Assembly (NCBI RefSeq): GCF_029227915.1
Contig: NC_079885.1
Span: 25,111,001-25,175,000 of the forward strand
Reading direction: 5' to 3'
Source of the DNA: Hydractinia symbiolongicarpus
Taxonomy: Eukaryota > Cnidaria > Hydrozoa > Anthoathecata > Hydractiniidae
DNA length: 64,000 bases
Shown: one piece after another, positions 4,827-62,261 of the stretch
Layout of the letters: the number at the start of each line of letters is the position of its first letter
Numbering within the stretch: the first letter of the stretch is position 1
Translations under genes and position numbers: made by a program
Notes under the pieces: generated by a model
Seen by the model: the letters and a program-made list of their open reading frames with translations, nothing else
What the model was told of the DNA's origin: nothing
Databases searched by the model: none

Positions 4827-5340
4827 ATTTCACAAATACAAATGAGTATTTAAATCGGGTAAAAGTCCATGCATCGTCAAAACAATTAAAAGAAAATCAA
4901 CAGGAAATTCATTTTGAAATTACTTCTTCATCTCCAATGAAAAGTAAAAACCTACCTGAAAGTGAAGCACAGAATAATAAAGCAAACAGCAATGCTAAAT
5001 CTGACAAAAGAAATAATATTACAAGTGCTTTTGTAGAGTCGTTGATTCCGGTAAACAAAGAAAGAAAGTTTTAAAAACAGTTGGACGAAGTAATATTTTG
5101 GAGATGAACAAAGTTGAAGAAAAGCTAAAGCATGAATGTCAAATAAATGGTGTAAACTATTGCCAACCGTCTTCTACAGAAAGTAAGGACAAAAGGAAAG
5201 CTAGAAGACGAAAGTTAAAGACAGATATTAAAAAAGCCTCTGTACTGACAGGTGATAGCTCTGTTAAACTAGAGAACAATTTAGAAAAAAAAAATTTAAC
5301 CCTAAATAAGGCAGAAGAAATGTTAAAATAGGATTGTAAA
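4827..5340 (+). pseudogene. Basic repeat region of the Helentron protein, copy A
   Basis: Two frames (about 4790-5074 and 5098-5331) encode a Lys/Ser-rich linker with repeats ending in KARRRKLK, which would act as nuclear-localisation-like basic patches. A frame break lies near 5040 and a TAG at about 5329. Copy B reads through the first of these in one frame. Confidence 0.65.
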
Positions 5341-5448
5341 GTAAGTGGTGTAGGCTACCAGCAACCATCCTCTAACAAAACAAAAAGAAAGGCTAGGAGA
5401 AGAAAATTAAAAAATGATATTCAAGCCCATGATCAAAAAACTAATGAT

Positions 5449-6144
5449 GTGGTAGGTCAAGGTATTAGTGGCAACCCAAATGTTTATCACATGATCAACA
5501 TATTCCAGAAGGGTGAAAATATGCACATTATAAAAACCTGCACAACTTGTAAAGAGACTAGACAATTTTTTTATGAAACTGAGCCATCTGATTTGTTTCA
5601 ACACAGAACTGGGCGTATAATTTCAAATTGGAAAATCTTTGCAGATAATAAATGTTCCCGTTGTCATAGTGAATTTCTTTCACGAAAGAGAAAAGGAGAA
5701 TCAAGTTCTGCTGCCAAATTTTCTGGTATACTTTCTGACATACCACACCTTGATTGTTTAGATTCTATATACCATAATAACATGCATTTCTCAGAGGTTC
5801 CATTTTTTTTAAAGTCGTTAACGTTCATGGAAACTTTGATGATTCGAAAGATTCAGGTAGCAATGTATGTTCACTCATTAAAATATGGTATGTTAGCATC
5901 AAAAGGTCATGCTGTTGCTATACCACACAATATGAAGATTACAACCTCACTTCCTTTATTACCATCAGAAATCAGCATATTATTGTTAAAGAAAAAGAAC
6001 ACTTCTAGTAAACAATACTTTGTGTCACGTACAAAAATTGAGTCAGCATTAAAAGGACTTGTGTTTGGTTATCCCACATATGGTGACTGGTCTCAGGTTA
6101 TAATAAGTATAAAGGTCCTAACCATTGTTCAGGAATTAAACTAA
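5449..6144 (+). pseudogene. Zinc region plus DUF6570-like domain, copy A
   Basis: 231 aa without a stop. The first part has paired Cys motifs (CTTCKE, CSRCHSEF) typical of the zinc-binding N-terminus of Helitron/Helentron proteins. The later part (FMETLMIRKIQVAMYV, SKGHAVAIPHN, SLPLLPSEI, then V.RTKIESALKGLV) follows the DUF6570 pattern. A poly-T difference at about 5805-5815 joins two frames that are split in copy B. Confidence 0.7.
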
Positions 6145-13958: not shown

Positions 13959-14244
13959 ATGCACAGCCATGATATTTTTTTTCTCCAAAGCTTCATAATA
14001 TGGTCAAATCTATAATGATTAATCATGAGGACGGAATAAGTAAAGAAACCAAGCTATATGAATGCTTACAAACAGACTTTAAAAACACAGATGATGTATT
14101 TTCTCCAAAATTTATATGATGGCGTCCACCTGGTGGAATTGAAGAAACTGTCAATGTAGAAAAAAATGGTTACCAAACAAATTACTATGGGCAAAACCAG
14201 AAGGTTGTGCATTACCTGTTGATGGAACCATTCTTCACAACACG
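13959..14244 (+). pseudogene. Degenerate HUH-to-tyrosine linker, copy B
   Basis: Base-for-base the same as 7219-7504 as far as I can see, including all stops. An unrecognised intron is possible, but no good GT...AG pair restores the frame. Confidence 0.55.
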
Positions 14245-15957
14245 TTGGCTGACATAGATACAACTCAAGGATTGAAAGAATTCCACATTAATTTTGTAAA
14301 CAAAATTTTGTTACACAGATGCAGTTTGTTCTGTTGGCGTAGAAAAACCATTACTATTGTTAATCCAGATAGAACGAAAAGTAAGAAGGTTGTCAAGTAT
14401 TGTAGATTTAACTTCGGAGAATTTGATGACGAAACATATATAACTTCAGGGAAAAACATTCATCCTTATAACCCAGTAATTACTGATGGAGCACATCCAC
14501 GTTATGAAGGACCATCTGATCATCCTAGACTTATACAACATGCAAAGTGTAGACCCATGAGTTGGTTAGCAAACTGTGACACCAAGCCAATTATAGAGCA
14601 AGATTTTATTTCTCTTCTTAAATATGTAGCAGGGTATGCCTGTAAAGGAGCTGCAACAACCACTGATTTAATAACTATTTATAGTAATTTATTAAATACA
14701 TCTGACAGTAATGCATCTGTCCGAAGTATAGCTCAAAGACTATTGTTAAAAACTGTTGGCATGGTTGATACACCAGGATCTGCTGCTGATTTCATTAACA
14801 CTAGATCAAAATTATACCATTTCTCTAGAAAATTCAAAAGGATTGGATTGAGTGGTTATAGAACTTTAAAAATGCAGAATGATTTTAGTGGTACTGTCAC
14901 AAATTCCACACCTTTGGACAAATTTTGTGGAGATGACAGGCGTCAAAATCTCCCTGCAATTACACTTTTTGATTTGGCGAAGATTTGTGATTGTCCTAAA
15001 AGTACAAGATGTGGACAAGACCATGTTCCTGTTTTTACTGGATTACCTATATATCCCAATTGGCCAGTTGAGGAGGATTATGCAAAAGCCCAGTTAATGA
15101 TATTTTCAAAAGGTACATGGAGAAACACAAACGACTTACTTAATGGCCATGACAACTTTACAGATGCTTTTGCAGAGTTCTTAGATTCTGAAGAATGCCC
15201 TGAAGCTTTATTAGAAGTTATGAAATTGGCTAAGGCACATTATGACGAAAAGACATTGAAAAAAGAAAAGTATAAAAATATTCGAAAGTTACAGGTATTG
15301 GAAGATTCAGAATTATCCCAAAGTCAATCGCAGTCAATGTCGTCACAGCAGTCACAAACTGAATATTTGGGTTATGCATTACTTCGTGACATTTTAAGAG
15401 AAAAGAGAGCCCATGCAATTAACCCAGAAGTTGATGATGTAGTTCTGCCAGATGGAGGTACTTTATATAACTGGCATGAGCAAGGCATACAAAAATTACC
15501 CCATTCAGTAGATATTGAGGAGGCTAAAAACTGGGTGAAGAACATGTTAAAGACTTCTGAAAAAAGAGAAATGGAACACAATTCTCAATGCAATCTTCCT
15601 GATGTAAATGTAAGGTTGGTGAATGATAAACAAATGCAAGTGGTTTATTTTCACATTAAACACTTACTATCTGTTGCTGGTAATACAAATTTTAAAACTG
15701 TTCCTCTGCGAGTCATTGTCCAGGGAAGTGCTGGTACAGGAAAAAGTCAAATAATAAAAATTTTAACAAGGTTAGTGCGCAGAGTATTCATATCAAATAG
15801 GTCAGTTTTAAACTTGGCTCTCACAGGTGCTGCAGCTGTACTGCTCCCAGATGGTCATACTATTCACTCTGTAACACCTCTACCTTCTAAAAAAAATCAC
15901 TTGCTTCAGCAGCATTGCATGATTATCCATTGTCTGATTTGCAATTTAGAAAATTAA
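14245..15957 (+). pseudogene. Rep tyrosine region fused to PIF1-like helicase N-terminus, copy B
   Basis: 570 aa, the longest open piece. Residues 115-150 carry KYVAGYACKGA (two catalytic tyrosines). A Ser/Gln-rich hinge (SQSQSQSMSSQQSQ) lies near residue 365. The helicase starts around residue 460, with Walker A GSAGTGKSQIIK near 490 and motif Ia LALTGAAAVLL near 525. PIF1 helicases unwind DNA 5'-3', and in Helitrons drive strand displacement. The frame is lost near 15910 just after HTIHSVTPLPSKK. Confidence 0.85.
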
Positions 15958-23498: not shown

Positions 23499-24374
23499 AT
23501 GAATCGTCTACGCACACATTACACAGGAACAACAGGATCTACCCTAATGACTGATCGGTTCAAATTCTGGCATTCGTCCCAAAATCAAGATGAGACGGTC
23601 CAGGATTGGGAGGTCCGAAAACGACAAGCCGGAAGCCTGTGTGAATATGGAGAAATTACAGACATTATGTGTCGTGATAAGTTTGTCTTTGGACTTTGTG
23701 AGGACACAGCACGAACTGAACTGTTAAAAACACATCTGAGAACAGATGGCACACAAAAAACAATGTCAGATGTTGTCGCAGAGGCCAAGTCAATGGAATC
23801 TGCTCGAGTGACAAACAAACTCATCAGTGATGCATCAAAAGGGACAGAAGAGAATGTTCACTGGACAAAAGCAACAATACCACCACAACAAAGGAAGAAA
23901 CACAGAGACATAAAATTGAGACGTGAGCCAAATACTTGCCACTGGTGTGGAGACAATAAAGGACCACATCCTTGGGCAAATTGCCCAGCTAATGGACGTA
24001 AATGCACAAGGTGTGGTGGATTTGACCACTTTGCAAGAGTATGTCTAGAACAACAAAATGTCAGCCACCTTGGCAACAAGGGATACAACAGACCCAACTA
24101 CAACAGAAGAAATAACCAACGTCCAACACAACCAAACAGCAATCCGCAGGGTATGGAAAAGTCGACCAACCACCTTCATGCAACATCAACATATCATCAA
24201 CCAGAAAGCAGAACAGAATCACCTGAGCAGCAACAACCAACATACACACTGATGAACAACCACTGTATTACAGCACAGCGTACGCAACAGATCAACGGAA
24301 TGGACAATCCCAATCAAATCAGGAAAAATTTTATTCAAAGCTTTTGTGTTCATCAACAGGGAGAAACTTTGTAA
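23499..24374 (+). pseudogene. Gag with two zinc knuckles (outer Gypsy)
   Basis: 291 aa. Two C-terminal knuckles: CHWCGDNKGPHPWANC (CX2CX6HX4C) and CTRCGGFDHFARVC (CX2CX4HX4C). The N-terminus appears short, and an upstream ATG at 23473 is out of frame, so the first residues may be lost to a shift. The C-terminal third is Gln/Asn-rich. Gag packages the element RNA. Pol overlaps its end by 31 bp in the -1 frame. Confidence 0.85.
24326..24332 (+). promoter_or_regulatory. Candidate -1 ribosomal frameshift site gag/pol
   Basis: The heptamer A AAT TTT lies in the gag frame 40 nt before the gag stop and fits X XXY YYZ. Slipping -1 enters the pol frame, which is open from here into protease. No downstream pseudoknot was checked. 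Confidence 0.45.
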
Positions 24375-25903
24375 ACCTACAGTTCCAAATCGACTCCGCC
24401 GCTACATCCAACACCATATCGCACCAGGTCGTCCAGAAATACTTTCCTGATATCAAGCTTCAGAAATCGCGTTGTGTATTACTTCCTTATGGGAACAAAA
24501 GTGAGCCAATCAGACCCATCGGGAAAATCACCCTTTTGTGCGAAAAGTTCAAAAAGTATCATAGTCTAGTGTTCCAAGTCCTTGACTCGAAGGACATGAT
24601 CGGAAAGCCAGCTCTCCTTTCCGGTAAAGACTGTGTAAACATGAATATCATGACAATCAACACAGGGGATATCTACTCTCTGCAACAGCAAGGCAACCTG
24701 AATCAGCCAACAACCACTAGCCAACCAAAAACACATGTTAACAAAACAAAGCCTTTAGATACAACCCATCCGCTGACCAAAGAGTCATTAATTGAATGCT
24801 ATAAAGATAGCTTTAACGGTGTTGGCTGTCTCCAACCACCAGTATCATTTCGGGTAAAAAATGATGTTACACCAGTTCAAATGCCAATTCACCAAGTACC
24901 ACTGAGCAAACGTGGGAAAGAAAAAGCAGCTATAGACAGATATGTCAAAGAAGGAATACTGGAAAAAGTGACACAACCAACTTCATGGTGCTCAAACATA
25001 CTTTGCAGAGAACAACCAAACAAATTTCGTGTATGCATAGACCCCAGCCAAACAATAAACAAAGCAATAGAACGACCTGTATACCAAATGCCAACACTGA
25101 ATGAACATCTACACAAACTGAACAATGCAAAATGTTTCACATTAATTGATGTAAAGGATGGGTATTTTCACGTGCCGTTAGATGAAAAATCATCAGATAT
25201 GACAACAATGCACACTACCTATGGACGTTATCGATGGAAAAGACTTCCATTTGGCATCAACAGTGCTCCAGAGAAATTTCAAATGAGACTCATGACAGCG
25301 TTAGAAGGACTAGAAGGTATCGCACCCATAGCTGATGACATCCTAGTATATGGTTGTGGGGAAACATACCAGACAGCAGAAAGGGATCATGCCAAAAATC
25401 TCATTGCACTAATGGAAAGAGCTAGAACCAAGAACATCAGATTCAACCCAGCAAAACTCAAATTCAAGCAGAAAGAACAGAAATTTGTAGGACACATTCT
25501 TACACAAAATGGCATCAAAGCTGATCCGGAGAAAACTGATGCCATCCTACAGATGCCAAAACCACACGACAAAAAGAGCCTGCAACGCTTCATTGGAATG
25601 GTCAACTACTTATCACCTTACTGCCAGAACTTGAGCACTGTCATCCGGCCATTGACTGAACTAACAAAAACAGACATGGCGTTCACATGGTCTTCAACAC
25701 AACAGACTGCATTTTCAGATGCTAAATCACTTATAGCATCTACACCTGTCCTACAATACTTTGATCCAGCTAAGAAGGTGATACTCCAGGTTGACGCAAG
25801 TGACAATGGTCTTGGAGGAACACTTCTACAAAACAACAATCAAGAACAGTTACAACCAGTCGCATTCACATCTTGTACTCTCACTGAAACTGAGAGAAGA
25901 TAA
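24344..25903 (+). pseudogene. Pol: aspartic protease and reverse transcriptase (outer Gypsy)
   Basis: 519 aa. The protease motif is FQIDSAATSNTIS near residue 18 (DSA in place of DTG/DSG). RT landmarks are EKVTQPTSWCSNILC, FTLIDVKDGYFHVPLD, RLPFGINSAPEKFQ and IADDILVYG (the YXDD box is IADD). RNase H opens with VILQVDASDNGLGG. A TAA at 25901-25903 after ETERR sits where related elements have Tyr (RRYS.IEKE). RT copies RNA into cDNA. Confidence 0.9.
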
Positions 25904-27302: not shown

Positions 27303-27378
27303 TAGAGAGTTATATATATTTAGTAGGTGTAACATGTATTATATTTCCTTTCTTGTATTCTAGATCAAACATTACAAA
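27303..27378 (+). repeat. Left 76-bp terminal repeat of inner element
   Basis: TAGAGAGTTATATATA...TCTAGATCAAACATTACAAA. It ends with a polypyrimidine tract and AG (CCTTTCTTGTATTCTAG), like an intron acceptor, and the pol frame is open right after it. It is short for an LTR and has no TGG primer site behind it. Confidence 0.7.
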
Positions 27379-27410
27379 ACTCGAACAACGCCCAGGAAAC
27401 ACGACAACTT

Positions 27411-29618
27411 GTGTATGTCACCAACGAAACCAACCAATTCTTCATCAGCAAAGGTGCTTGCATTGACTTGGGTATCATCCCCTCCAGCTTCCCAGCCATC
27501 GCCAACAAATATCAAGTTGCATCAGCTGACGTTCTCAAAACAGCGACAGATCACCTCAATCATCCCGAACAATCTTCAACACCAACAACAATTGGCTGTG
27601 ACTGCCCAAAACGTGAACCTCCACCAGCCCTTCCTACTGGTCTTCCATGTGACGCAACAGACGAGAATCGGCAGAAACTACAGGACTTCCTACTAAATCA
27701 CTACAAGTCCAGTGCCTTCAATACGTGTGAGCACCAACCGCTGCCGATGATGACTGGACCCCCACTGTCCCTTCAGATCGACGAATCCGCAGAACCTACA
27801 GCTCATCACACTCCAATCCCTGTTCCGTTTCACTGGCAAGAGAAAGTCAAAGCCGATCTGGACCGCGATGTTCTGCTTGGAGTGCTCGAAAAAGTGCCAA
27901 TAGGAGAACCTGTGACCTGGTGTCATCGCATGGTAGTATGCGCCAAGAAAAATGGAAAACCTCGTCGTACCGTAGACTTCCAAGCCCTGAACGCCTGTGC
28001 AACGAGAGAAACTCATCATACTCAGTCTCCATTCCATCAAGTACGTTCGGTGCCCCACAACGTCAAGAAGACTGTCACAGATGCCTGGAATGGATACCAC
28101 AGTGTCCCCCTCTGTGAAGAAGACAAGCACCTCACAACCTTCATCACCCCTTGGGGTCGTTACCGGTATCGCACTGCACCACAAGGCTACATTTCATCTG
28201 GTGACGGCTACACAAGACGATTTGATGAAATAGCCTGTGACTTCCCAAACAAAATCAAAGTCGTAGATGATTCTCTACTATGGGCCGATACCTTGGAGGA
28301 GAGCTTTCATCAAACTGCACAGTGTGTTGACCTTTGCGCTCGTAATGGTATCATCTTGAACCCTGATAAATTTGAATTTGGTGCCGACACCGTCGAGTTT
28401 GCTGGCTTCGAGATCACGCCTACATCCGTCCGTCCTAACGAGAAGATCATCAGAGCAATCATGGACTTTCCGACACCAAAGAATCTCACAGACGTACGTT
28501 CATGGTTTGGTCTTGTGAATCAAGTCACATACACTTTCAGCATGACATCGTTCATGGAACCATTCCGCTCACTACTGAAGCCAACGATGAAGTTCCAATG
28601 GAATGAGGAATTGCAAGCAATCTTCGACAAATCAAAACTTCAAATTGCGGCAGAGATTGAGAATGGCGTCCGTATATTCGACAAACAGAAACCAACGTGC
28701 CTCGCCACCGATTGGTCGAAATCTGGCATTGGTTACTGGCTGTTCCAGAAACATTGCAACTGCCCTGACATCAAACCTTTCTGCTGCAACACTGGTTGGA
28801 AGGTGGTACTTGTTGGTAGTCGGTTCACTCATGCTGCTGAATCACGTTACGCTCCCATCGAAGGTGAAGCCCTCGCGGTAGCCGATGCACTTGACAAGGC
28901 CAGACACTTCGTATTGGGCTGCGACGATCTTATCGTTGCAGTGGACCACAAGCCCTTGCTTGGTATCTTCTCCGATCGCTCACTTGATAGGATCTCCAAT
29001 GGCCGCCTACGAAACCTGAAAGAGCAGACTCTTCGATACCGTTTCAAGATATGCTACATCCCAGGCCGAAAGAATTGCGTCTCAGACACCATGTCTAGAC
29101 ATCCAAGTGGACCCAAGTCTCCTGACAAGATGCACCTACCCGATGACGTGTGCTCTATCGACTCTACTGAGCTGTTACCACCGAAAGCCCATCAAGTTCT
29201 TCCGTCGAAAGTATTTAATCAGACAACTTCAATAGTCGCAGACGAAGAGGGACTCCTGAACCAATCCGTTGCTGCTATCACCACTGCATGCAATTCAGTG
29301 ACATGGGATATGATAAAGGAAGCCACTTCCAGCGACAACAACATGGTCCAACTCACAGAACTCATCGAGTCTGGGTTCATTCAGCCTTTAGATGAACTCC
29401 CAGAAGCGCTCCGCCCATATCACCAACATCGATCTGACTTATCAACACTGGATGGTGTCGTTATCTTCAAAGACAGGATCGTCGTCCCACCCAGCCTTCG
29501 AAGCATTGTCCTTGATAACCTTCACGCGGCACATCAAGGCACCAATTCAATGATTGCTCATGCTGAATCTGCGGTTCTGGCCTGGTATCACAAAGTCGAT
29601 CAAAGAACGAAGATCTAG
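27411..29618 (+). pseudogene. Pol: protease remnant, RT and RNase H (inner Gypsy)
   Basis: 735 aa; the frame is open further upstream to about 27362. It starts in the end of the protease (FFISKGACIDLGIIP). RT: GVLEKVPIGEP, VVCAKKNGKPRRTVDF, TFITPWGRYRYRTAPQGY and VVDDSLLWAD (box VVDD). RNase H: CLATDWSKSGIGYWL, ESRYAPIEGEALAVADAL and VAVDHKPLLGIF, then NCVSDTMSRHP. A one-base loss near 29575 drops the frame at the integrase zinc finger. Confidence 0.9.
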
Positions 29619-32392: not shown

Positions 32393-32639
32393 CGAGGGTG
32401 CCAACAAGCCGCATACGCCGTAAAAAGTGCTGGCATTTTCGGGCGAGATCAAAATTCAAGTATTCACCCGAAAAAACCCGCATAGACCCGAGCAATGCCC
32501 GAACGAGGAAAGCTATCTATCTAAGGGATTGCAACTTTAGGTGCAGGGCCAATGGACAAGATGGGAGAACTGCCTAAAGTTTGATCTTTCATGGAAGAAC
32601 ATCCTAGCATATCCTCCTAATCTCTTATCTTTCTGCCTG

Positions 32640-33302
32640 TAATCCACTTACGATGTTCTGCCCTCAACAAGTAACCTGAAGAGGTGGAAAATAAATACAG
32701 AACCATCTTGTTTCCTATGTCACAAAGAAATTTGCACTTCTGCTCACATTCTTGGTGCTTGTAAAACTGCTCTTTCCCAGGGAAGAAATACCTTTAGACA
32801 CGATTCTGTACTTACCCATTTGGTAGAAACTTTGAAGAAGTTCATTTTTGAGCTTCCTTCTGAACCTCCTAAAAAATGTCACAAAATAACCTTTCTGAGA
32901 GCTTGGTCAAAGGCACGTACAAAATCTAAAGTGTCAGGTATACTGCACCTGACCAAAGATTGGAAGATCGTTGCTGACACACACTCGAACTATGTGTTTC
33001 CTAGCCATATTGCCATTTCTGAGCTTAAACCGGACCTTGTGCTATATTCAAATGACCTTAAGCGTGTTATTATTGTGGAACTCACTTGCCCATGTGAGGA
33101 AAACATGAATGCTAGGCACTCCACCAAAGTTGCCAAGTATTCCTGTTTAATAAATGTGATTATGGTTAATGGCTGGCAAGTTGATTTCTTTGCAGTGGAA
33201 GTAGGAGCAAGAGGGTATTGTGCAAGAACCACCATTGCCTGTTTGAAAAAAATGGGTTTCACCAACAAACTTGCTTATTCCACTGCAAATAATCTCGGTT
33301 AA
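32640..33302 (+). pseudogene. Zinc knuckle and restriction-like endonuclease (RLE), LINE copy 1
   Basis: The knuckle C..C...H....C reads SCFLCHKEICTSAHILGACK, then GRNTFRHDSVL. The ORF 32820-33302 gives the RLE: ELKPDLVLYSNDLKRVIIVELTCPCEEN, then KVAKYSC, the PD...(D/E)xK-like pattern seen at the C-terminus of R2/NeSL-type LINEs, here with E for the usual D. The domain nicks target DNA to prime reverse transcription. It ends at TAA 33300. Confidence 0.8.
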
Positions 33303-34001
33303 ATCAGTATAAGGTCTTCTTTTTGTATCTGGCTGGCACCTGAATCCAATGTTGTCAACTGACTCCTGAATGCAATTACCCAAATCCAAGCAGGCTTTGC
33401 CCAATGTGGAGACCAAGGGTGTTTCATCTCGCCAAAAGGAGCCTTCTAAAAAGGTTAGCCAAAATAAAAATGACGCTCGACCAATTAGTGTCTATAAAAA
33501 CATCGGTTTTTCAAACAAATGCAACACTTGTTTATGCCAACGCCATTTTGCAAGTATCAAGTACCATTCCAACATTCTGGTGCCAAAGTGGGTCAGAATC
33601 ATTTGTCACCTATTGCGAGATCTGTTTCGCTTAACATGGCGAAGCTGAAGCAATCATTGTCACCCATTGACCCTTCGAATTTTCTCTGGGCCCTTGAATG
33701 TCAAATGCACTTCGATGGGAAAGTGGACTTCCAATTTAATAATCAGCAAGATGTAGCAGAGATTTTGTTTGTGGTTTTGGACGCACTAAAGGGATTTTCC
33801 CCGATTGCTGCAGATAAAATCTCAACAGAAATCTCAATGTCTGTAAGCTGTAACACCTGCCTGTGCACCTTGGTAAATGTAGAAATGCAGGACATTTTAA
33901 CACTGCCAATGACATCTAAAATCCAGTCTTGTGTCAGCAAATTTTTAGAACCGGAATTTCTAACCGATGGAAACAAATGTAGTCCAGTCGTTAAGTGTTT
34001 T

Positions 34002-36229
34002 GACCTGGAAAAAAATGATATAGAGCTGAAACTTGGCACACTTACTCCATTTTATATGTAGATTACCAGAAAAAAAAGCCCCATCGATAGCATTTGTAGA
34101 AAATGAGATATGCGCCATTTTTAAAAATGGTGGATTTCCAAATTTTTCAGAAAACGAAAGCTGGTAAATTCGAAAACTAATTAAACTATTGAAAAGAACT
34201 TTCGATTTGGAACAAAAAATATTATTACATCGACTTACAAAAATCATTAATTGTGGGGGGGGGGGTAGGTAATTTTCTGAAGAAAAAAAAAATTAGAAAG
34301 AACCCGACAATGCATACAGTTATTTTCTAATTTATCAATGCTAGATATTTAGATCTATTTTTAGTTTTTTTTCAGTTATTTTACTTATAAAAGGTCAGAA
34401 AAGAAGTTTGCTTTATTAGAAAACGGAAGAATTGATAGATAAGAATAGAATATAAAAGAATAGTTTTTTAAATAGAAAACTGAAAAGTATAGATGGAACA
34501 ATGGCTTCAAACATGGAATCTTCATACACGTCAGTCTGGTAGATACAATTATTCTATTATTGCATGATATGAAAGAATTGATTGAAAGTGAAATCAATCC
34601 TGGCGACAAGTATCCGTCTTTTTTTTATAAGATTTCTTAAATTATCTCAGAAGCGAGGATGAGGTGTTCTTAATATTTTCTTCACTTCGACCTGCGTAAA
34701 CATTGAATTCTCATTAGAAAAGATTCAAAAAAAAGAAACTTTGGACATACGAGCCTCGTGATTTTCTAAACATTTTGGTTTTTTTTTAAAAGAAGCCGAA
34801 ACAAACAACAAAAAAAGCCGTTGTAACAGTTGCCGATGATACCGATGTCGCAATGATGCTTCTATACCATTGGCAAGAATATCATGGAGATGTTTACTTC
34901 TTTCAAGAGAGGTTGGATAAAGCCTGGAACATGAAAGTTGTCTGTCAGAAATGGAACCCTATCCGACAGCATATTCTTTTTGTACATTCGTTTTCCGGCT
35001 GTGATACAACATCGGCACCTTTTGGAAAGGGAAAAAATAACTTGCTGTCATTGGTCACAAAGAACAAAACATTGCAGATTGTCTCAGACACAATGGGTGA
35101 TGTTTGGGCAGACAACAGAGATGTCGAAGAAGCTGCCATCAAAGCGTTTCAAATCATTTATGGTGGTAACGACTTGACTGATTTATGCAAACTTAGGTGA
35201 GTTTCTTATATAATATAACATTTATTCACAATACAAAAAGGTTCTCTTCATTTAGTATAATCTCAAAGTGCATTTTTGCAGATACCGGAAATATCTCGAT
35301 ATGTGTTGGAAAGGAAAAATTGATCCTGAAAAGATGCCACCTACGGAAAGTGCTGCTATTCTACACGGTTTTCGAGTTCATCTACAGATAATGAATTGGA
35401 AGATATTAGAGGAAGAAGAGGTATAAATTTTAAACCACACAAGTGTCCAAGCAATGTCAGTTAAAGTAGCAATTTCTCAATTTTTATAACAATCTATTGT
35501 CTTATAGCTTAAGCAAATTGATCCAAGCAAATGGGGCTGGAAAATTGAAAATTCTCAAATGATGCCAATAAAGACAGATAAACAAGTCGCCCCTGATAGC
35601 CTCCTAAAAATCATTAAATGCAACTGCAAGGCTACTTCGAAGTCACCCTGTTCAACAAATTTGTGTTCATGCAGAAAACATGGTCTGAGCTGTATGCAGT
35701 CTTGTGGAGAATGTCACGGTGAAACATGTGAAAATAAAGAGGTCCGCTCTCTATAATTCTTCATTTTTAAAGGCAAATCTCTTATAAGGAGTCAGTTCAG
35801 CAAAAAAGCCAGCCTTTATCTTATTAATCACTTTTTTTTAGGTATTCGATGGTGATAGTAACGTCGAAGATGATTTGGAAGATGAAGAAGAGAATAGAAA
35901 CATTTTTGATATATTTGATGCATTTTGATTTTACATAATTTGTATACATATTTTTACTTTTTTAAGATGAAAACTATTAAAGAAAGTCCATGACTTTAAA
36001 AATATTGATTTTTGAGAGTTGGGTTGATAATACTTTTTGTTCTAAATTGACTGGTTCTCGAATTGACCAACTTTCGTTTTCTCGAAAATTTGGAAATCCA
36101 CCATTTTTAAAAATGGCGCATATCTCATTTTCTACAAATGCTATCGATTGGGCTTTTTTTTCTGGTAATCTACATATTAAAAGGAGTAAGTGTGCCAAGT
36201 TTCAGCTCTATATCATTTTTTTCCAGGTC
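34002..36229 (+). mobile_element. 2.2-kb TIR transposon inserted in USP
   Basis: Inverted repeats of about 220-240 bp: GACCTGGAAAAAAATGATAT at 34002 and its complement ending CCAGGTC at 36229, with several mismatches. Flanking AGTGTTTT / AGTGTGTT looks like an 8-bp target duplication. It encodes the DDTD/CXC gene below. The superfamily is not assigned. Confidence 0.8.
34790..35755 (+). CDS. DDTD/PIN-like and CXC-cysteine protein of the TIR element
   Basis: Three exon-like blocks. Block 1 (34801-35197) reads VADDTDVAMMLLYHW and LFVHSFSGCDTTSAPFGKGK and ends at AGG|GTGAG. Block 2 (about 35280-35420) has YLDMCW and MPPTESAAILHGFRVHLQI. Block 3 (about 35511-35740) has DPSKWGWK, APDSLLKIIKCNC and CSTNLCSCRKHGLSC with CGECHGETC. 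This layout recurs as multi-copy transposon-borne genes in cnidarians and molluscs; the acidic N-terminal part resembles PIN/FEN nucleases and the C-terminal part a tesmin-type CXC zinc domain (inferred). No stop interrupts the blocks. The N-terminal exon (possibly 34510-34620, HVSLVDTIILLLHDM) is uncertain. Confidence 0.6.
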
Positions 36230-36690
36230 AGTGTGTTTTTTTTACTTTAACGACTGGACTAATGGTTTTGTCCACAATGCTTTTCACATAGAGAGAGTAC
36301 TAGAGAAACACAAATCAGCAGGAGTAGTCTTATTCTTGCATCTTTAAAGGTTTTTGAAACATGGTGAACATCTGGTGAAAGACAACAGAGTTGTTGAATG
36401 TGTTTCTTTACGTGACTCTCTCCTGCAACTACCTCTCGTCAGCGATACAGATACAATGTTTAATCAGAACTACTCATTGTTAGGAACAATTAATCACTCC
36501 GGTACGTTGGCCGCAGGTCATTATTGGGCTTATGTTAAGGATCCTGTCACAAATGCTTGGTACCACTCCAACGATCGAGCGGTTTGCAAATGCTCTCCAC
36601 CTATTCTCAACAACAATTCATGTTATCTTCTTTGTTACGTTCGCTGTTCATCCGCTTTTTCTTTTCTTTCTTTTACATTTATCATTACGT

Positions 36691-37600
36691 TTATAAAACC
36701 TGTACTTCCAGGGTCATGGGGAGAAAAACGTAAATCCGAGCGGTTTCGTATTACCCCTGCTAGTCCATTCCAGAACCAGTTCACCGTCAATACCCAGAGA
36801 GTAAACAGTTCAGCTCACTCTTCTCTGGTAACTTAAAAGAAGCTTAGCAAGAGGGTTTACTTTCAGCTTGTCTTTGGGTGTAAGGACCCCACTTATTACC
36901 CCAGTTCAGTAAGGTGCCCAAGTTTACTAACTTGGTCTTCAGGCTTGACAACCCTGCTGTCCTTAGTCAGAATATGTAAAGGCTGGTCCTGTCATGACAA
37001 CCTCCTGTGTAAGGCTGAGTGTTGGGGCCCTGTAACACATATGGAAAGCTACAGCCATAGTCACAAGTTCTGGCACACAGGAGGGTTTTTATTTAATTCT
37101 TTTTTATATTATATATTTTTGAGATATATGTTTTTTCTATTTGTGTTTGCTCTGTAACCGGTCCGTTTATGTTGTTAGCTCTGTCTTGTGTCGTATTGTT
37201 TGTGATTGATGGATTGTTTTTTCTATTTAAGATTTTCTCAGAGAATTGTTATAGGTCCAAGTTGGACAGTACTCATGCTTGTAATAAGCAAGAAAGTGTA
37301 TTCAGCACCTTCTTCTGGGAGCCTAATCCCAATTTTATTTATACCCACCGTCCCTGTAGACAAGATACTTCAGTGCAGCTTGCTGTATTGTAAACCCTTT
37401 TCATAAAAAAAAACAGACACTAATATATGATTCAAAAAAACTATAAAAATTAAAAATGAACTTACTATGACGTAGCAAAGTTCTTAGAAGAACTGTTTTT
37501 GATAGTTTTTGAAAAAGTTTACTTTATAAATAACTTATATATAAACTTTATTAACTCCTTTCTCTTCAAGCGCCTTCTTCCCAACCATCGTCTGTATGGT
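36691..37600 (+). other. 3' UTR of LINE copy 1
   Basis: CTTGTCTTTGG...CCACTTATTACCCCAG at about 36866-36905 matches the 3' UTR of LINE copies 2 and 3. The rest is AT-rich with no gene; short open frames here have no protein character. Confidence 0.6.
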
Positions 37601-38397: not shown

Positions 38398-38727
38398 CTA
38401 ACTATTAGTTATTGAATAATATAGAGCTACAGACAGGTCCTTTCATAAAGGGGTCCATAAGGTTTAGTTTTTACACCATCTGTTAATTCCCAGAATCCGC
38501 TAGCCATTATTAATTTATGAAGTTTCTCTATCTATACTATCACAAAACTAGAGCAAATATTTTCTGTTTTCATTAGGAAATGGGTAAAACTACATCATTC
38601 AATTTCCAACATTTCCTTATATTCCTCGACATCGCCTTGTCCTCTTCCCCTGAAAAGTCTTGCATCTGTTCTCAAATCTGCCAAAATCAGTGGACATCTG
38701 TTACTAAGAGATTCTGTCAACACTTGT

Positions 38728-39805
38728 GTGTCTAAGTGCGTACCAGATTTAAAAGCTGGAAATTGGAAAGTTAGTAAAGCATTTCTTTCGGTGGATAGTC
38801 AGCTCAATTTCAAAAGGATTTTAGGTTTGCATCAGACTGGTCGAGCTGGTTTAGTGTTCTTAGACCACATAAATATACCACCAAAAGGCACTTATGCTTA
38901 CCGAAAGCTTGTTTCCAATATCATTGAAGAAAATTAAGAAGATATTTACCATGCCAGAGCTGTACAGTAGCATTTGCAAGGCAATTGGACAAAATGGTGC
39001 TCTTATGTGAGAAATGATTTATCTTGGACACAACACCCTTCCCTCTGTAACCAATCTTGTGAGATGGGGAATTGAGAAAGACAAAAGTTGCATTCTGTGC
39101 AAGAAACCGTCCTCAAATGTCTCTCACATATTGGGTGCCTGTAGGACCTCCCTTACGCAAGGTAGATACACATACCGTCATGACTCGGTTTTAATAGTTT
39201 TAAGGCATTAAAAGAGTTTTTGGTATCATATGAACCTCTTAAGGTTTCCAAGTGCAACAAAATTATTTTCATTCTGGCCGGTCAATCACCATCTAAGAAG
39301 AGCCATACAAAGTGTCCAGGCCTTCTTCACCTTGCTTTCGATTGTAAAATACTGTCAGATTTAGATTCCGTTTTAGTTGTTCCACCATACATTGCAATAA
39401 CACAACTATGCCCAGACGTGTTATTAATATCCAGTTCTTCCAAAACTGTAATTATGGTAGAACTGACTTATCCATGTGAAGAGAACACGGAATATTGGCA
39501 CAAACGAAAGCTTAACAAATATTCACTTTGTTATGCTATGAAAAACAATGGATGAATCCTGCATTTCTTTGCCATTGAGGTGGATGCAAGGGGGTCTCTG
39601 TTCAGAATCAGTAAGAACCTGTTTTCGTCGCCTTGGTTTCCCTAGCATGCCTCTACGTTCCCTATTAAAATCCCTAACTTTTTCCTCCATGAGTGCTTCT
39701 TTTTACATCTGGATGTCTCGAAATTCTACCACTTGGGTTGAGCCTGAAAAGGCCCCAATCATTCCTGAAGTTTCTTCTGTTACAAATATGGAATGTAAGA
39801 AATGA
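38728..39805 (+). pseudogene. Zinc knuckle and RLE, LINE copy 2
   Basis: Fragments 38728-38937, 39014-39211, 39220-39555 and 39548-39805 together cover FKRILGLHQTGRAGL, SCILCKKPSSNVSHILGAC with GRYTYRHDSVLIVL, QLCPDVLLISSSSKTVIMVELTYPCEEN, and the linker to USP. It keeps TGT (Cys, SDC-type context FDCKILSD) where copy 3 has TGA. Breaks: TAA 38935, a 4-base loss near 39200, and TGA 39553. Confidence 0.75.
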
Positions 39806-39839
39806 AAAACCCCTGAAAAATCTTCCGCAAGTCACACAA

Positions 39840-40713
39840 AATCTTGTAAAATTAAAAAACCCGAAAAACTTGCTACAAGGTCTTCCAAAACAACAGTCGC
39901 ATTGCCATCTAACCCTGATTTTAGGAATAGCAGTCAAAAAAACTTAAGAAACACATGTTACGCAAACTCAATCTTGTTTGGCTGTTTCTAGAAGTCCAGT
40001 TGATCCCTCCCATTTTTTGCGTAGTATGAAACATCATGTCTCAGCTGCGAAGGAAAGTGCATTTAATATCTTTGCTCAGCACGACGTCCCCGAGGTTCTT
40101 AAATATCTCCTACCTGGTCTGTCATTAGACTCCATTTCTTGAAAGACTTTTTAGTATTGGAATCAAGACATCAACCACTTGCAATTCATGTCATATTACC
40201 AGCTCCTCAGAAGTTATAACACCATGCATCCAACATTCTCTCCACCCTACGTTACAATCTTCCTTTGATAATTTCTTCGAAAGCGAGGAGTTGTCAGACA
40301 CCAATGCCTACTTCTGCCATGTTTGCAACGCTCATCAAACTGCTGTAGTTGAAAAAGAGGTAGTGTCGTGCGGTTCCCATCTCATTTTACAGCTAAAACG
40401 TTTTGCCAGTGCCAACGGCCTTGTGTCAAAAATTGCCTCTCGTATTACTGCTTTTCCTGGTACCCTTTCCATACCTTTTTTTGTAGATGGAGAAGTGAAA
40501 GTTCGTAAAAATTTTCAATTAAGGGCTATTATCAACCATTGCGGCAACTTAAATAATGCTCACTACACAACCATAGCCTTTGACCAAATGGTTCACAGGT
40601 GGATACATTGCAACGATAGAGCAGTAATTTTCTGTGATGACCGCCTTATTAACAGTCACGAGTCACGAGTCATATGTTTTCTTTTTAGAAGAGCTGAGGT
40701 AAGAATATTTTAA
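39840..40713 (+). pseudogene. USP domain, LINE copy 2 (Cys box deleted)
   Basis: The C-terminal part is open from 40291: FCHVCNAHQ, LILQLKRFASANGL, NFQLRAIINHCGNLNNAHYTT and RWIHCNDRAVIF, i.e. the LKRF and His boxes. The upstream CNSC zinc pair is at about 40177. The nucleophile segment is lost with the deletion. Confidence 0.8.
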
Positions 40714-40956
40714 CCAGTATGAGTCAGCAAGGGGGCTTGACTACACTCAGTCTTGTCTTTGGAGAGTGACGACTCCACTTATTACCCCAGTTAAAAAAAA
40801 TATATTAGTAGGGGGGTTTGATCACGCATGATCTTGTCTTTGGAGAGTAACGACTCCACTTATTACCTGAGTTAAAAACAAAGAATAGCGCAGTTGAACA
40901 GAAAGTGGTCAAAGTTTACTTTAGGAAGATAGGGATGTCTAGTTTCTGCTGATGAC

Positions 40957-41243
40957 GGTCCGCGGACCTCTTCGAGGTGACCCAGCTAGACATCCAGGGT
41001 ATTTAGGTTCAGAAATGGGTCGAAACCTACCTGCCCTTGGTTAAGTTTCTGTTCATCTTTTCAAATGTGTTGTCCTTTTTATTTTTTTTATATATATTTT
41101 TTAATTAATTCCTTGTAAAAAGGGAGAATAGTGCTTTTAGAGGCATTTTCTCTAGAGGAGTACAACCTCTAGCTTTTTTCAAAGACCTAACAGGTTGAGT
41201 TCATCATTGCGGTGGCTTGCCACCTCTTTGTAAATTATTTTCT
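40957..41243 (+). repeat. SINE-like repeat, copy S3, at the 3' end of LINE copy 2
   Basis: The 5' head has GGTCCGCGGACC and ACCTC-TTC-GAGGT hairpins, then GGGTCGAAACC (B box), and the 3' end GGTGGCTTGCCACC-TCTTTGTAAATTATTTTCT. Confidence 0.75.
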
Positions 41244-58445: not shown

Positions 58446-59155
58446 TTAAGCTTTTACAAAGCGGTCAATCCAACCTATGATTCTGATAAGTTTATCGAAT
58501 GAAGAGTAATTTTCGTAACTGACTGTCATTTCTTTGCTGTCAGCCGCATTAATTAAAACTGTTTTCCCCTTGATTTCTTTATCATCAGGATCCAATGGTA
58601 GTGTTTCTATGGATGGCCAAAGGTTTTCGTTGCCCTGCAAAATTCGGGATGGACTTCCAAGATCTTTTGCCTTCTGCAAGTTCTAGCTCGTGCATATCGT
58701 AGACCCATCTTGTGATGACATCAGCTGGGTTTTTATCGCCAGGTACGTGATACCACTGTGAATCGGATTTCGGAGACTCGATTTGCAATAAAGGTTTTAT
58801 ATCGACTTCTCTCATTTTTGTGTGTCAATGTCGAATCACTCCAGAAATAAACTTCTTAAATTGGTATATCGTTTTCTTTTATAATAAATCCGTACAGCCT
58901 TACTGCACGTGTGGCGGCATTAAGTTCAAGTCTTGGAACGGTTTGTGGCTTCGTTGGTGCAACTCTTCCCTTTGACATTACGGGGTTTATTTTGGCAGGT
59001 TTAGCCCCAATTCTCAAATAGGCAACTGCGCCATAGGCCCTTTCTGATGCGTCTCCAAACAGGTGCAACTGCAATTTGGTTGTGAAAACGGTCTTGTAGC
59101 ACCTTTCGATTTTGAATTTCTTCCAGGATTGCAGACCCTGTTGCCATTTTTCCAT
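58446..59155 (-). pseudogene. BEL/Pao retrotransposon RNase H fragment
   Basis: Minus-strand pieces: 59155-58856 reads WKKFKIERCYKTVFTTKLQL, HLFGDASERAYGAVAYLRIG, SKGRVAPTKPQTVPRLELNA; then VYFWSDSTLTHK and KTFIANRVSEI in another frame; 58815-58585 gives WYHVPGDKNPADVITRW; 58679-58446 continues WPSIETLPLDPDD. This is the BEL/Pao RNase H with its linker. At least three frame breaks and no LTRs nearby. It is truncated on its 5' side where LINE copy 3 begins. Confidence 0.8.
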
Positions 59156-59171
59156 GCAATTTGTATAGTGT

Positions 59172-60368
59172 TGCTTATGTTCCTAATGTCCGCGTCAATT
59201 CCAAGTACTCAAAATTTATTAAACAGGTGTACAACGGCTCTTGATTGGGTAGGCATGTCGTTTAGGCCTTCTAAATCACGCAGCATTGTGATTGATAAGG
59301 GAAAAGTCGTCCAAAGTTCACCGTTTACAGTTGGCAACGAAAAAATTCCATCCATTCATTCTAATCCAATTAGGTTTTTAGGCAGAACAATAAACTCATC
59401 CTTGTCTGATTCTGCTGCAATACAAGAATTTCTAAATAATGCCGAAGACAAACTTATAGCTATAGACAGGTCCTTTCATAAAGGGGTCCATAAGGTTTGG
59501 TTTTTACACCATCTGTTAATTCCCAGAATCCGCTGGCCATTATTAATTTATGAAGTTTCTCTATCTACTATCACAAAACTAGAGCAAGGATTTTCTGTTT
59601 TCATTAGGAAATGGTTAAAACTACTTCATTCAATTTCCAACATTTCCTTATATTCCTCGACATCGCCTTGTCCTCTTCCCCTGAAAATTCTGTCGACCCT
59701 TGTGTGTCTAAGTGTTAAAATCTGGAAATTGGAAAGTTAGTGAGGAAGTTCTTTCGGCGGATAGTCAGCTTAATTTCAAAAGGATTTTAGGTTTGCATCA
59801 GACTGGTCGAGCTGGCTTACGGCTCTTAGACCACAAAAATATACCACCAAAAGGCACTTATCCTTACCGAAAGCTTGTTTCCAATATCATTGAAGAAAAT
59901 GAAGAAGATATTTACCATGCCAGAGCTGTACAGTTGCATTTGCAAAGCAATTGGACGAAATGGTGCTCTTATGTGAAAAATGATTTATCTTGGAGAACAA
60001 TTCTTTCACTGTCACAATGTGTAACTTCCTTTTGTATAGGGGCAACCTACGACACCCTTCCCTCTCCAACCAATCTTGTGAGATGGGGAATTGAGAAAGA
60101 CAAAAGTTGCATTCTGTGCAAGAAACCATCCTCAAATGTCTCTCACATATTGGGTGCCGGTAGGACCTCCCTTACGCAGGGTAGATACACATACCGTCAT
60201 GACTCGGTTTTAATAGTTTTGGTTAAGGCATTAAAAGAGTTTTTGGTATCATATGAACCTCTTCAGGTTTCCAAGTGCAACAAAATTAATTTCATTCCGG
60301 CCGGTCAATCACCATCTAAGAAGAGGCATACAAAGTGTCCAGGCCTTCTTCACCTTGCTTCCCATTGA
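59172..60368 (+). pseudogene. RT thumb and zinc knuckle, LINE copy 3
   Basis: The first frame (to 59740) has FRPSKSRSIVID, IRFLGRTINSSLSD and PRIRWPLLIYEVS..I, then FIRKWLKLLHSISN, the post-RT region of RLE-type LINEs (R2/NeSL-like). The second frame (59712-60368) has FKRILGLHQTGRAGL, RWGIEKDKSCILCKKPSSN with VSHILGAG (final knuckle Cys changed to Gly) and GRYTYRHDSVLIVL. The RT palm with its catalytic box is absent, removed by 5' truncation. Confidence 0.8.
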
Positions 60369-61262
60369 AAAATACTGTCAGATGTAGATTCCGTTTTAGT
60401 TGTTCCACCATGCATTGCAATAACGCAACTACGCCCAGATGTGTTATTAATATACAGTTCTTCCAAAACTGTAATTATGTTAGAACTGACTTGTCCATGT
60501 GAAGAGAATACGGAATATTGGCACAAACGAAAGCTTAACAAATATTCTTCACTTTGTTATGCTATGAAAAACAATGGATGGATCGTGCATTTCTTTGCCA
60601 TTGAGGTGGGTGCAAGGGGTTTCTGTTCAAAATCAGTAAGGACCTGTTTTCGTCGCCTTGGTTTCCCTAACAAGCCTCTACGTTCCCTATTAAAATTCCT
60701 AACTTTTACCTCCATGAGTGCTTCTTTTTACATCTGGATGTCTCGAAATTCTACCACTTGGGTTGAGCCTGAAAAGGCTCCAATCATTCCTGAAGTTTCT
60801 TCTGTTACAAATATGGAATGTAAGAAATCAAAAACCCTTGAGAAATCTTCCGCAAGTCACACAAAATCTTTTAAAATCAAAAAACCCGAAAAACTTGCTA
60901 CAAGGTCTTCCAAAACAACAGTCGCATTGACATCTAACCCTGATTTTAGGAATAGCGGTCTAAAAAACTTGGGAAACACATGTTATGCAAACTCTATCTT
61001 ACAATGTTTTTATAACCTTTCAAAAGTTAAAGAAGCCATTTCTGTCAGCAAAACAACCTCAAAGTTAGGCGAAGCATTTGTAGGTGTTCTTCAAAGTTTG
61101 GCTGTTTCTAGAAGTCCAGTTGATCCCTCCCATTTTTTGCGTCCTATGAAACATCATATCTCAGCTGCGAAGGGAAGTGCATTTAATATCTTTACTCAGC
61201 ACGACGACCCCGAGGTTCTTAAATATCTCCTACCTGGTCTGTCATTAGACTCCATTTCTTGA
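60369..61262 (+). pseudogene. RLE endonuclease fused in frame to USP N-terminal half, LINE copy 3
   Basis: The open frame begins right after TGA 60366-60368. RLE: RPDVLLIYSSSKTVIMLELT, CPCEENTEYWHKRKLNKYSS, FFAIEVGARGFCSKSVRTCF. A Lys/Ser/Thr-rich linker of about 70 residues follows (KKSKTLEKSSASHTKSFKIK). Then the USP Cys box SGLKNLGNTCYANSILQCF with the nucleophile Cys, and FTQHDDPEVLKYLLPGLS at the QQD box position. RLE and USP are thus one polypeptide in this frame. The linker looks like a flexible hinge. Confidence 0.85.
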
Positions 61263-61832
61263 AAGTCTTTTTAGTATTGGAATCAAGACATCAACCACTT
61301 GCAATTCATGTCATATTGCCAGCTCCTCAGAAGTTATAACACCATGCATCCAACATTCTCTCCACCCTACGTTACAATCTTCCTTAGATAATTTCTTCGA
61401 AAGCGAGGAGTTGTCAGACACCAATGCCTACTTCTGCCATGTTTGCAACGCTCATCAAACTGCTCTAGTTGAAAAGAGGTAGTGTCGTGCGCTTCCCATC
61501 TCATTTTACAGCTAAAACGTTTTGCCAGTGCCAACGGCCTTGTGTCAAAAATTGCCTCTCGTATTGCTGCTTACCCTGGTACCCTTTCCATACCTTTTTT
61601 TGTAGATGGAGAAGTGAAAGTTCGTAAAAATTTTCAATTAAGGGCTATTATCATCCATTGCGGCAACTTAAATAATGCTCACTACACAACCATAGCGTTT
61701 GACCAAATGGTTCACAGGTGGATACATTGCAACGATAGAGCAGTAATTTTCTGTGATGCCCGCCTTATTAACAGTCACGAGTCACGAGTCATATGTTTTC
61801 TTTTTAGAAGAGCTGAGGTAAGAATATTTTAA
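61263..61832 (+). pseudogene. USP C-terminal half, LINE copy 3
   Basis: After a shift near 61258: ERLFSIGIKTSTTCNSCHI, SSEVITPC, then CHVCNAHQ (zinc-ribbon Cys pairs), one further one-base loss near 61475, then LILQLKRFASANGL, NFQLRAIIIHCGNLNNAHYTT (catalytic His) and RWIHCNDRAVIF. Total USP length about 290 aa, compact but complete. Confidence 0.85.
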
Positions 61833-61994
61833 CAAGAATGAGTCAGCAAGGGGGCTTGAATACACTCAGTCTTGTCTTTGGAGAGTAACGACTCCACTTA
61901 TTACCTGAGTTAAAAACAAAGAATAGCACAGTTGAACAGAAAGTTGTCAAAGTTTATTTTAGGAAGATAGGGATGTCTAGTTTCTGCTGATGAC

Positions 61995-62261
61995 CGTCCG
62001 CGGACCTCTTCGAGGTAACCCAGCTAGACATCCAGGGTACTTAGGTTCAGAAATATGGGTCGAAACCTACCTGCCTTTGGTTAAAGTTCTGTTCATCTTT
62101 TCAAATGTGTTGTGTCCTTTTTATTTTTTTATATATTGTTTTTAATTAATTCCTTGTAAAAAGGGAGAATTGTGCTTTTAGAGTCATGTTCTCTAGAGGA
62201 GTACAACCTCTAGCTTATTTCCAAAGTCCTAACAAGTTAAGTTCATCATTGCGGTGGCTTG
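61995..62261 (+). repeat. SINE-like repeat, copy S4, at the 3' end of LINE copy 3
   Basis: B-box-like GGGTCGAAACC at 62057-62067. It ends at GCGGTGGCTTG, cutting the terminal hairpin in half. Confidence 0.75.

Follow-up and report, generated by a model that had tools for sequence, protein, structure and literature searches.

A restriction-like-endonuclease LINE of Hydractinia symbiolongicarpus with a predicted C-terminal USP-type deubiquitinase

The window that was analysed here, a stretch of 64,000 nucleotides from the genome of Hydractinia symbiolongicarpus (assembly GCF_029227915.1, contig NC_079885.1, positions 25111001-25175000), holds copies of a long interspersed nuclear element (LINE) that, judged by its sequence, is a non-long-terminal-repeat (non-LTR) retrotransposon of the restriction-like endonuclease (RLE) type. 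Its single open reading frame (ORF), which comprises an N-terminal region, a reverse transcriptase (RT), a zinc knuckle and the RLE, ends in a complete predicted deubiquitinase of the ubiquitin-specific protease (USP) type. Copy c1 (Table 1) is 5'-truncated within the RT domain just downstream of the FMDD box, which was lost by the truncation, carries several frameshifts and lacks the final ~24 nt of the 3' end. The initial annotation had placed the LINE at 59172..61832; the 5' border agrees with the start found at 59177, whereas on the 3' side the LINE extends to ~62259. The frames of c1 are 59048-59737 for the RT thumb, 59712-60365 for the connector and knuckle, 60369-61259 for the RLE, linker and USP start, 61249-61479 for the USP middle and 61473-61829 for the USP end. 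As that annotation had read it, the RLE passes within one frame through a Lys/Ser linker into the USP nucleophile box, GLKNLGNTCYANSILQ, whose Cys codon lies at 60981-60983; Pfam UCH (PF00443) matched this frame with an E of 1.2e-12 over profile positions 2-104 of 254. The His box that was said to follow after a frameshift was also recovered, with His 61680-61682 in the last frame (UCH E 7.6e-11, profile 149-241), and the middle frame gave UCH_1 only, at E 0.011, below the cut-off. With Asp 61734-61736 inside the CND at 61728-61736, all of the triad is present, and the USP of c1 is complete, yet split by two frameshifts. Its His box reads AHY instead of the usual GHY, and the final Cys of the CCHC knuckle is changed to Gly. 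The RLE motif consists of RPD at 60432-60440, Glu at 60483-60485 (ELTCPCEEN) and K/Y (KLNKY), and the stretch equivalent to the linker is predicted to be disordered in two relatives.

Table 1. Coordinates of the element copies, their parts and the transposon inserted in one of them (window positions).
Feature	Position	Strand	Basis
RLE-LINE copy c1 with C-terminal USP	59177..62259	+	tblastn with Hydractinia P0016 starts 59177; common 3' untranslated region (UTR) to ~62259
RT C-terminal part (thumb) of c1	59177..59686	+	alignment to relatives; P0016 match 59177-59704 at 66%
Connector and CCHC zinc knuckle of c1	59712..60365	+	alignment; zf-RVT PF13966 E 1.2e-4, below cut-off
RLE domain of c1	60369..60765 (end approximate)	+	alignment to 19 USP-bearing relatives
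Lys/Ser-rich linker of c1	60766..60950 (borders approximate)	+	alignment
USP (peptidase C19) domain of c1	60951..61829 (three frames: 60951-61259, 61249-61479, 61473-61829)	+	Pfam UCH; alignment
3' UTR of c1	61833..62259	+	blastn, MAFFT
Copy c2, same family as c1: zf, RLE, linker, USP; broken	38422..41243 (end approximate)	+	tblastn, blastn
Copy c3, divergent L035 family: zf, RLE, USP, 3' UTR	32503..37408	+	blastn, 94% to L035
DNA transposon inside the c3 USP, foreign to the LINE	33980..36262 (2283 bp)		inverted ends ~177 bp at 95%, TA at borders

Two further copies in the window have the same order of domains. Copy c2 resembled c1 at 77-96% across most of the RLE and USP in tblastn (match at 38.4-40.7 kb) and at 87-97% in blastn. 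Copy c3 aligned with L035, a copy elsewhere in the genome, in two blastn blocks on either side of the inserted DNA transposon (L035 4285-5767 to 32503-33979 and L035 5766-6916 to 36263-37408), and it reached only 45% over the RLE in a within-window tblastn (match at 32.5-36.6 kb), which means that two divergent families (c1/c2 and c3) share the domain order. In a search of the 480.9-Mb assembly (76 contigs), an RLE-USP query gave at least 135 matches (132 of 967 candidates scored), and each of the 30 fetched loci, the window copy included, spanned the RLE/USP junction (query residue <=16 to >=282). Because of these two window copies, the genome-wide matches and the loci that cross the junction, the fusion in c1 is more than chance. 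Both the Cys and His boxes of the USP lay in a single open frame at seven of the 30 loci, and in four of these seven (L007, L013, L022 and L027) that frame had the RPD pattern as well; L022 has an uninterrupted frame of 667 residues that begins ahead of the knuckle and reaches the USP end (Pfam UCH E 2.4e-27, zf-RVT sub-threshold), and L013 is without the stretch around the catalytic Asp. The copies have common 3' ends, unrelated flanks and 5' truncations, as is found in a dispersed multi-copy mobile element; no target site duplication of at least 8 nt was found at five insertion pairs. Portions of the c1 3' UTR are also common to window copies that end at ~41243, ~38043 (from 37763) and ~8197 (minus strand, from 8488).

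The genome also contains copies that are free of stops. Among the 39 matches listed from a genome search with the protein P0002 (33 of 3581 candidates scored), 13 covered the query from residue <=149 to >=1431, and 10 of these 13 had no internal stop. Six of the 13 were read. L035, L036 and L040 (on C2, C7 and C13) have 1426, 1426 and 1423 codons from stop to stop and encode proteins that are 99.6-99.9% identical, L037 has 1422 codons, and all four hold the RT, knuckle, RLE and the Cys and His boxes. L038 is interrupted, with a longest ORF of 782, and L039 is open across the fetched part, with substitutions beside the Cys (T to I) and beside the His (G to D). L035 and L037 have ~56% of their residues in common, and therefore two divergent families with stop-free ORFs are present in one genome. 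The domain search and intact ORF that the initial annotation had proposed as a check were obtained with L035, in which Pfam placed RVT_1 at 334-604 and UCH at 1132-1418 of 1421 residues in one ORF.

As an observation of its own, in six of six L035-family copies with a fetched 5' flank (L035, L041/L036, L042, L043, L045 and L048), the 3' end of another copy stood directly before the 5' start with no gap. The upstream piece varied from ~204 to 1030 nt, except in the C11 array, where an entire copy stood there; the outer flanks differed. This looks like partial head-to-tail dimers, comparable to those known as pseudo-LTRs in Penelope-like elements, or like transcripts begun in an upstream copy. 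Just past the 5' start of this family, a 19-bp unit is repeated 3.8 times (L035:1572-1644).

Protein searches with a composite of c1 and with the profiles A1 and A4 gave 70, 213 (120 listed) and 50 matches, respectively. Using our own profile, a complete USP was found in 76 of the 194 collected proteins, and in 60 of the 194 the RT, RLE and complete USP were joined in one chain, each time in that order. A complete USP without an RLE was found in two proteins, P0186 and P0188, neither of which has an RT in the Pfam lists. The frameshift-broken copy in the window, taken alone, would suit a chance juxtaposition in which a host USP gene or its processed copy lies beside a LINE; the stop-free single ORFs of the same genome, the 60 proteins and the two divergent window families with the same order refute this candidate, the probability of which is negligible. 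The genomic copies and proteins thus did not reveal an ORF that stops after the RLE with the USP encoded by a gene of its own, and a LINE with a C-terminal USP as one element is supported. Hydractinia was the one named animal source of USP-bearing element proteins, and P0112, listed in a Pseudomonadales metagenome bin, was read as eukaryotic contamination. A scan of viral contigs with P0002 gave two pattern matches, neither of which was confirmed; with A2, 22 pattern matches led to four confirmed contigs that corresponded to the USP part of the query only, and no further elements were found. In the genome contig collection, none of 94 pattern matches was confirmed. The VIA rows hold mainly the USP part, and missing RT or RLE rows there carry no meaning. 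Among the collected proteins, P0187 (2089 residues) combines a UCH with a DEAD helicase match further along the chain and may represent an additional USP-carrying mobile element.

Among PDB sequences, R2 matched the RT part best, and the modelled element chain aligned with R2 (R2Tg and R2Bm; structures of target-primed reverse transcription 9dou, 9nl3 and 8gh6) over ~790 columns. In R2, the RT, CCHC and RLE follow one another as they do in the element, and R2 is not known to carry a USP. It sits in 28S rDNA, whereas the element copies at the fetched sites do not, as all five L035-family 3' flanks differed; Rfam gave no match in L035 or the window. NeSL/Utopia elements are RLE LINEs that also have a cysteine protease linked to ubiquitin/SUMO biology, but theirs is Ulp1 (C48) N-terminal to the RT, whereas that of the element is a USP (C19), C-terminal and different in fold and position (PMC4640811). 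The same paper describes certain NeSL-clade elements that are also without a protease. For this reason, the missing PF02902 (Ulp1), for which there were no matches in the 15 complete USP-bearing proteins with sequence before the RT (P0112 and L022 do not have that part), leaves a place in the NeSL clade possible. The named relatives without a USP in the sister clade come from amphioxus and cypriniform fish, and their home is presumably the HERO clade. HERO-1_BF, HERO-3_BF, HERO-1_SP and HEROTn are listed in PMC7650587. HERO elements resemble the element in having the RT and RLE in a single ORF, and the likeness is drawn through the sister clade with its amphioxus and fish proteins. In that clade, 43 of the 44 proteins that are not of the Ulp1 kind end 1-13 residues past the RLE profile and one at 75, and no USP match was found in any of the 44. 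The HERO passages of PMC10294476 and PMC7650587 do not mention such a USP domain.

Ginger1 DNA transposons, whose OTU or Ulp1 is C-terminal, and a transposase_11 protein of Trichomonas with a peptidase C19 also combine a mobile-element protein with a ubiquitin-family protease, but as DNA transposons these have no RT or RLE (PMC2836005). The USP of the element was 20-30% identical to the catalytic domains of USP2, USP8, USP21, USP15 and USP46, which have no such fusion, whereas that of the element is joined to an RT and RLE. No prior report of an RLE LINE with a USP was found in the open-access literature, a scope that leaves subscription papers and Repbase outside. The C-terminal USP on an RLE LINE therefore appears to be new, while protease-bearing RLE LINEs (Ulp1) and transposons (OTU, Ulp1, C19) were already known. 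In the Hydractinia genomes, LINEs account for 4% each and ~60% of the repeats are unclassified, and the word "ubiquitin" is absent from the main text of the genome paper (PMC11067881).

An RT tree of 137 rows (quick search, support by SH-aLRT, a likelihood-ratio branch test, only; root unsure) had a branch with a support of 99 that separated 48 rows, namely 44 without a USP and four with an N-terminal Ulp1. These four (P0159, P0162, P0167 and P0170) are related RLE LINEs, and their Ulp1 is a separate protease capture. All of the 60 complete-USP and eight partial-USP rows lay outside this clade, together with nine truncated and 12 USP-less rows. The latter were the outlier P0069, two groups of four, and P0024, P0109 and P0119 among the USP bearers. 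P0069, which has 863 residues, an RT and an RPD...E motif and is assigned to a Bdellovibrionales bin, has a very long branch. The USP label required nine changes on the tree when partial domains were counted as USP, Ulp1 as its own state and truncated rows were excluded, and 21 when partial and truncated rows were scored as lacking a USP. Across the 60 rows, the RT and USP patristic distances had a correlation of 0.846, and none of 2000 permutations was as high. The simplest reading, which we prefer and do not regard as proved, would be that a host USP was captured once, was then inherited together with the RT and was lost in some lineages; the USP-less rows on the USP side are read as losses or cut predictions.

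The USP of the element has the fold of peptidase C19 (PF00443) and a Cys-His-Asp triad. Among the 71 complete USPs in the first 170 proteins, which are ~30-60% identical to the reference rows, the Cys and His were kept in 71 and the Asp in 70; the oxyanion Asn was present in 70, and the zinc ribbon Cys in 70, 71, 69 and 71. In a diverse set of 20 sequences, Cys1233, His1439 and Asp1455 were invariant. The RLE motif R/K-PD...E...K/Y was found in 68 of 71, the CCHC knuckle in 66 of 69, and [FY]xDD in all 60 complete-USP proteins whose sequence includes the RT part. The spacing from the RLE profile to the USP had a median of 47 (range 28-312), and 1-9 residues followed the USP at the protein end. 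In a search of BFVD structures, many of the matches were USP proteins of large viruses, and other viral proteins matched more weakly, which shows only a common fold.

This conservation despite divergence argues against an inert passenger or structural domain that is held by the position of the ORF stop codon, which we consider improbable; the absence of the USP from some sublineages and the within-family ratios, which were near neutral, would fit it. The initial annotation had proposed comparing these ratios among copies, and the outcome was mixed: no constraint appeared within the family of the window, while it was seen between families and in the catalytic residues. The ratio of nonsynonymous to synonymous changes (N/S) between c1 and c2 was 0.90 from the zf to the USP. 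In the USP of the window family it was 0.72 for shared and 0.85 for singleton changes (p 0.47), a test from which the zf-side part, whose value was raised by poor alignment of the flanks, and L026, almost a duplicate of L025, were excluded. USP values were 0.95 for L037/L039 (13 changes) and 0.57 for L037/L038 (nine changes); L038/L039 had four nonsynonymous and zero synonymous changes, L035/L040 one synonymous and two nonsynonymous, and L035/L036 one nonsynonymous. Over the whole ORF of the young L035 family, the ratio was 0.23 for L035/L036 (nine changes, one in the USP) and 0.09 for L035/L040 (eight changes, three in the USP). Between L035 and L037, where synonymous sites are saturated, the nonsynonymous difference (pN) was 0.21 in the RT, 0.23 in the RLE, 0.38 in the USP and 0.52 in the linker. 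The USP is constrained over long times, less so than the RT and RLE.

The fusion, its recurrence, the complete active site and the co-inheritance with the RT, as established from sequence comparison, suggest how such an element may work. The RT and RLE are joined covalently to the USP through a linker that is probably flexible. By analogy with R2, the RT/RLE part would nick DNA and perform target-primed reverse transcription, while the putative deubiquitinase would hydrolyse ubiquitin and, being tethered, strip it from the element's own protein and its neighbours in the ribonucleoprotein (RNP), thereby keeping host E3 ligases and the proteasome from clearing the complex before integration. In mammals, ubiquitin-dependent removal of LINE proteins is established: TRIM41 ubiquitinates human L1 ORF2p, which leads to its degradation (PMC10716122), and TEX19.1 and UBR2 aid the degradation of L1 ORF1p (PMC5570191). 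A LINE with its own USP would resist control of this kind, and we lean towards a reading in which the retrotransposon brings along its own means of countering restriction by ubiquitin, with a USP that protects the element's protein or RNP. The initial annotation had put forward both shielding from turnover and the editing of ubiquitin at the target as possible roles.

Several points weigh against this protective role. The precedents from L1 come from mammals; as substrates, histones, repair factors or a ubiquitin-like protein would fit the anatomy; no clear purifying selection on the USP was seen within families, and between families it evolves faster than the RT or RLE. On the USP side of the tree, two groups of four (P0051/54/110/114 and P0118/120/121/124) end 0-33 residues past the RLE profile, because of which the USP seems dispensable in some lineages. 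A USP that acts mainly on chromatin or repair proteins at the nick (ubiquitinated H2A/H2B, PCNA, FANCD2-like clamps), and thereby eases target access or second-strand repair, is possible but is favoured less. The flexible linker ties the USP to the presumed target-cutting nuclease, the structural neighbours include USP1 with ubiquitinated FANCD2 (7zh3) and SAGA Ubp8, and the Ginger paper suggests repair-related roles for transposon Ulp1 and OTU domains (PMC2836005); those neighbours, however, span many kinds of USP, with USP2, USP46 and USP11 on top, and say little about the substrate. It is more doubtful still, and less probable than a passenger, that the protease has a ubiquitin-like target instead of ubiquitin, either a module of the element that it would process or a modifier on which it would act. 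Weak Pfam APG12 matches after the RT (P0021 E 0.096, L035 E 0.042, both below the cut-off) point that way, but a scan of 17 proteins with a complete USP gave no ubiquitin-like domain that reached the cut-off, and the APG12 region overlaps or adjoins a stretch that matches R2 by sequence (P0002 298-728). The substrate module, for which these matches were the sole basis, was set aside.

Other features of the window include an antisense ORF (58856-59182, minus strand) that abuts the 5' truncation point of c1 and that we take to be a BEL/Pao RNase H fragment. The transposon that splits c3 has an inner ORF (34790-35197) without a Pfam match. ORFs for DUF6570 and a PIF1 helicase (5332-6138 and 14143-15951) lie on the same strand, presumably a Helitron-like pairing, and RT and RNase H ORFs of the LTR-retrotransposon type lie at 24227-25897 and 27333-29615.

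A broader proposal, which we judge to be evenly balanced, is that the RLE LINEs of an entire clade captured a host USP and turned it into a weapon: each RT protein would carry its own deubiquitinase, needed for retrotransposition because it would strip restriction-type ubiquitin from the RNP or target chromatin, parallel to but independent of the N-terminal Ulp1 of related elements. RLE LINEs acquired two ubiquitin-family proteases that are not related to each other, one at either end of the ORF, and, if the proposal is true, an attack on ubiquitin-family signalling would be a repeated strategy of these elements. We know of no retrotransposon shown to counter ubiquitin-dependent removal with its own deubiquitinase. 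The near-identical, stop-free copies of Hydractinia make the question testable in a laboratory animal.
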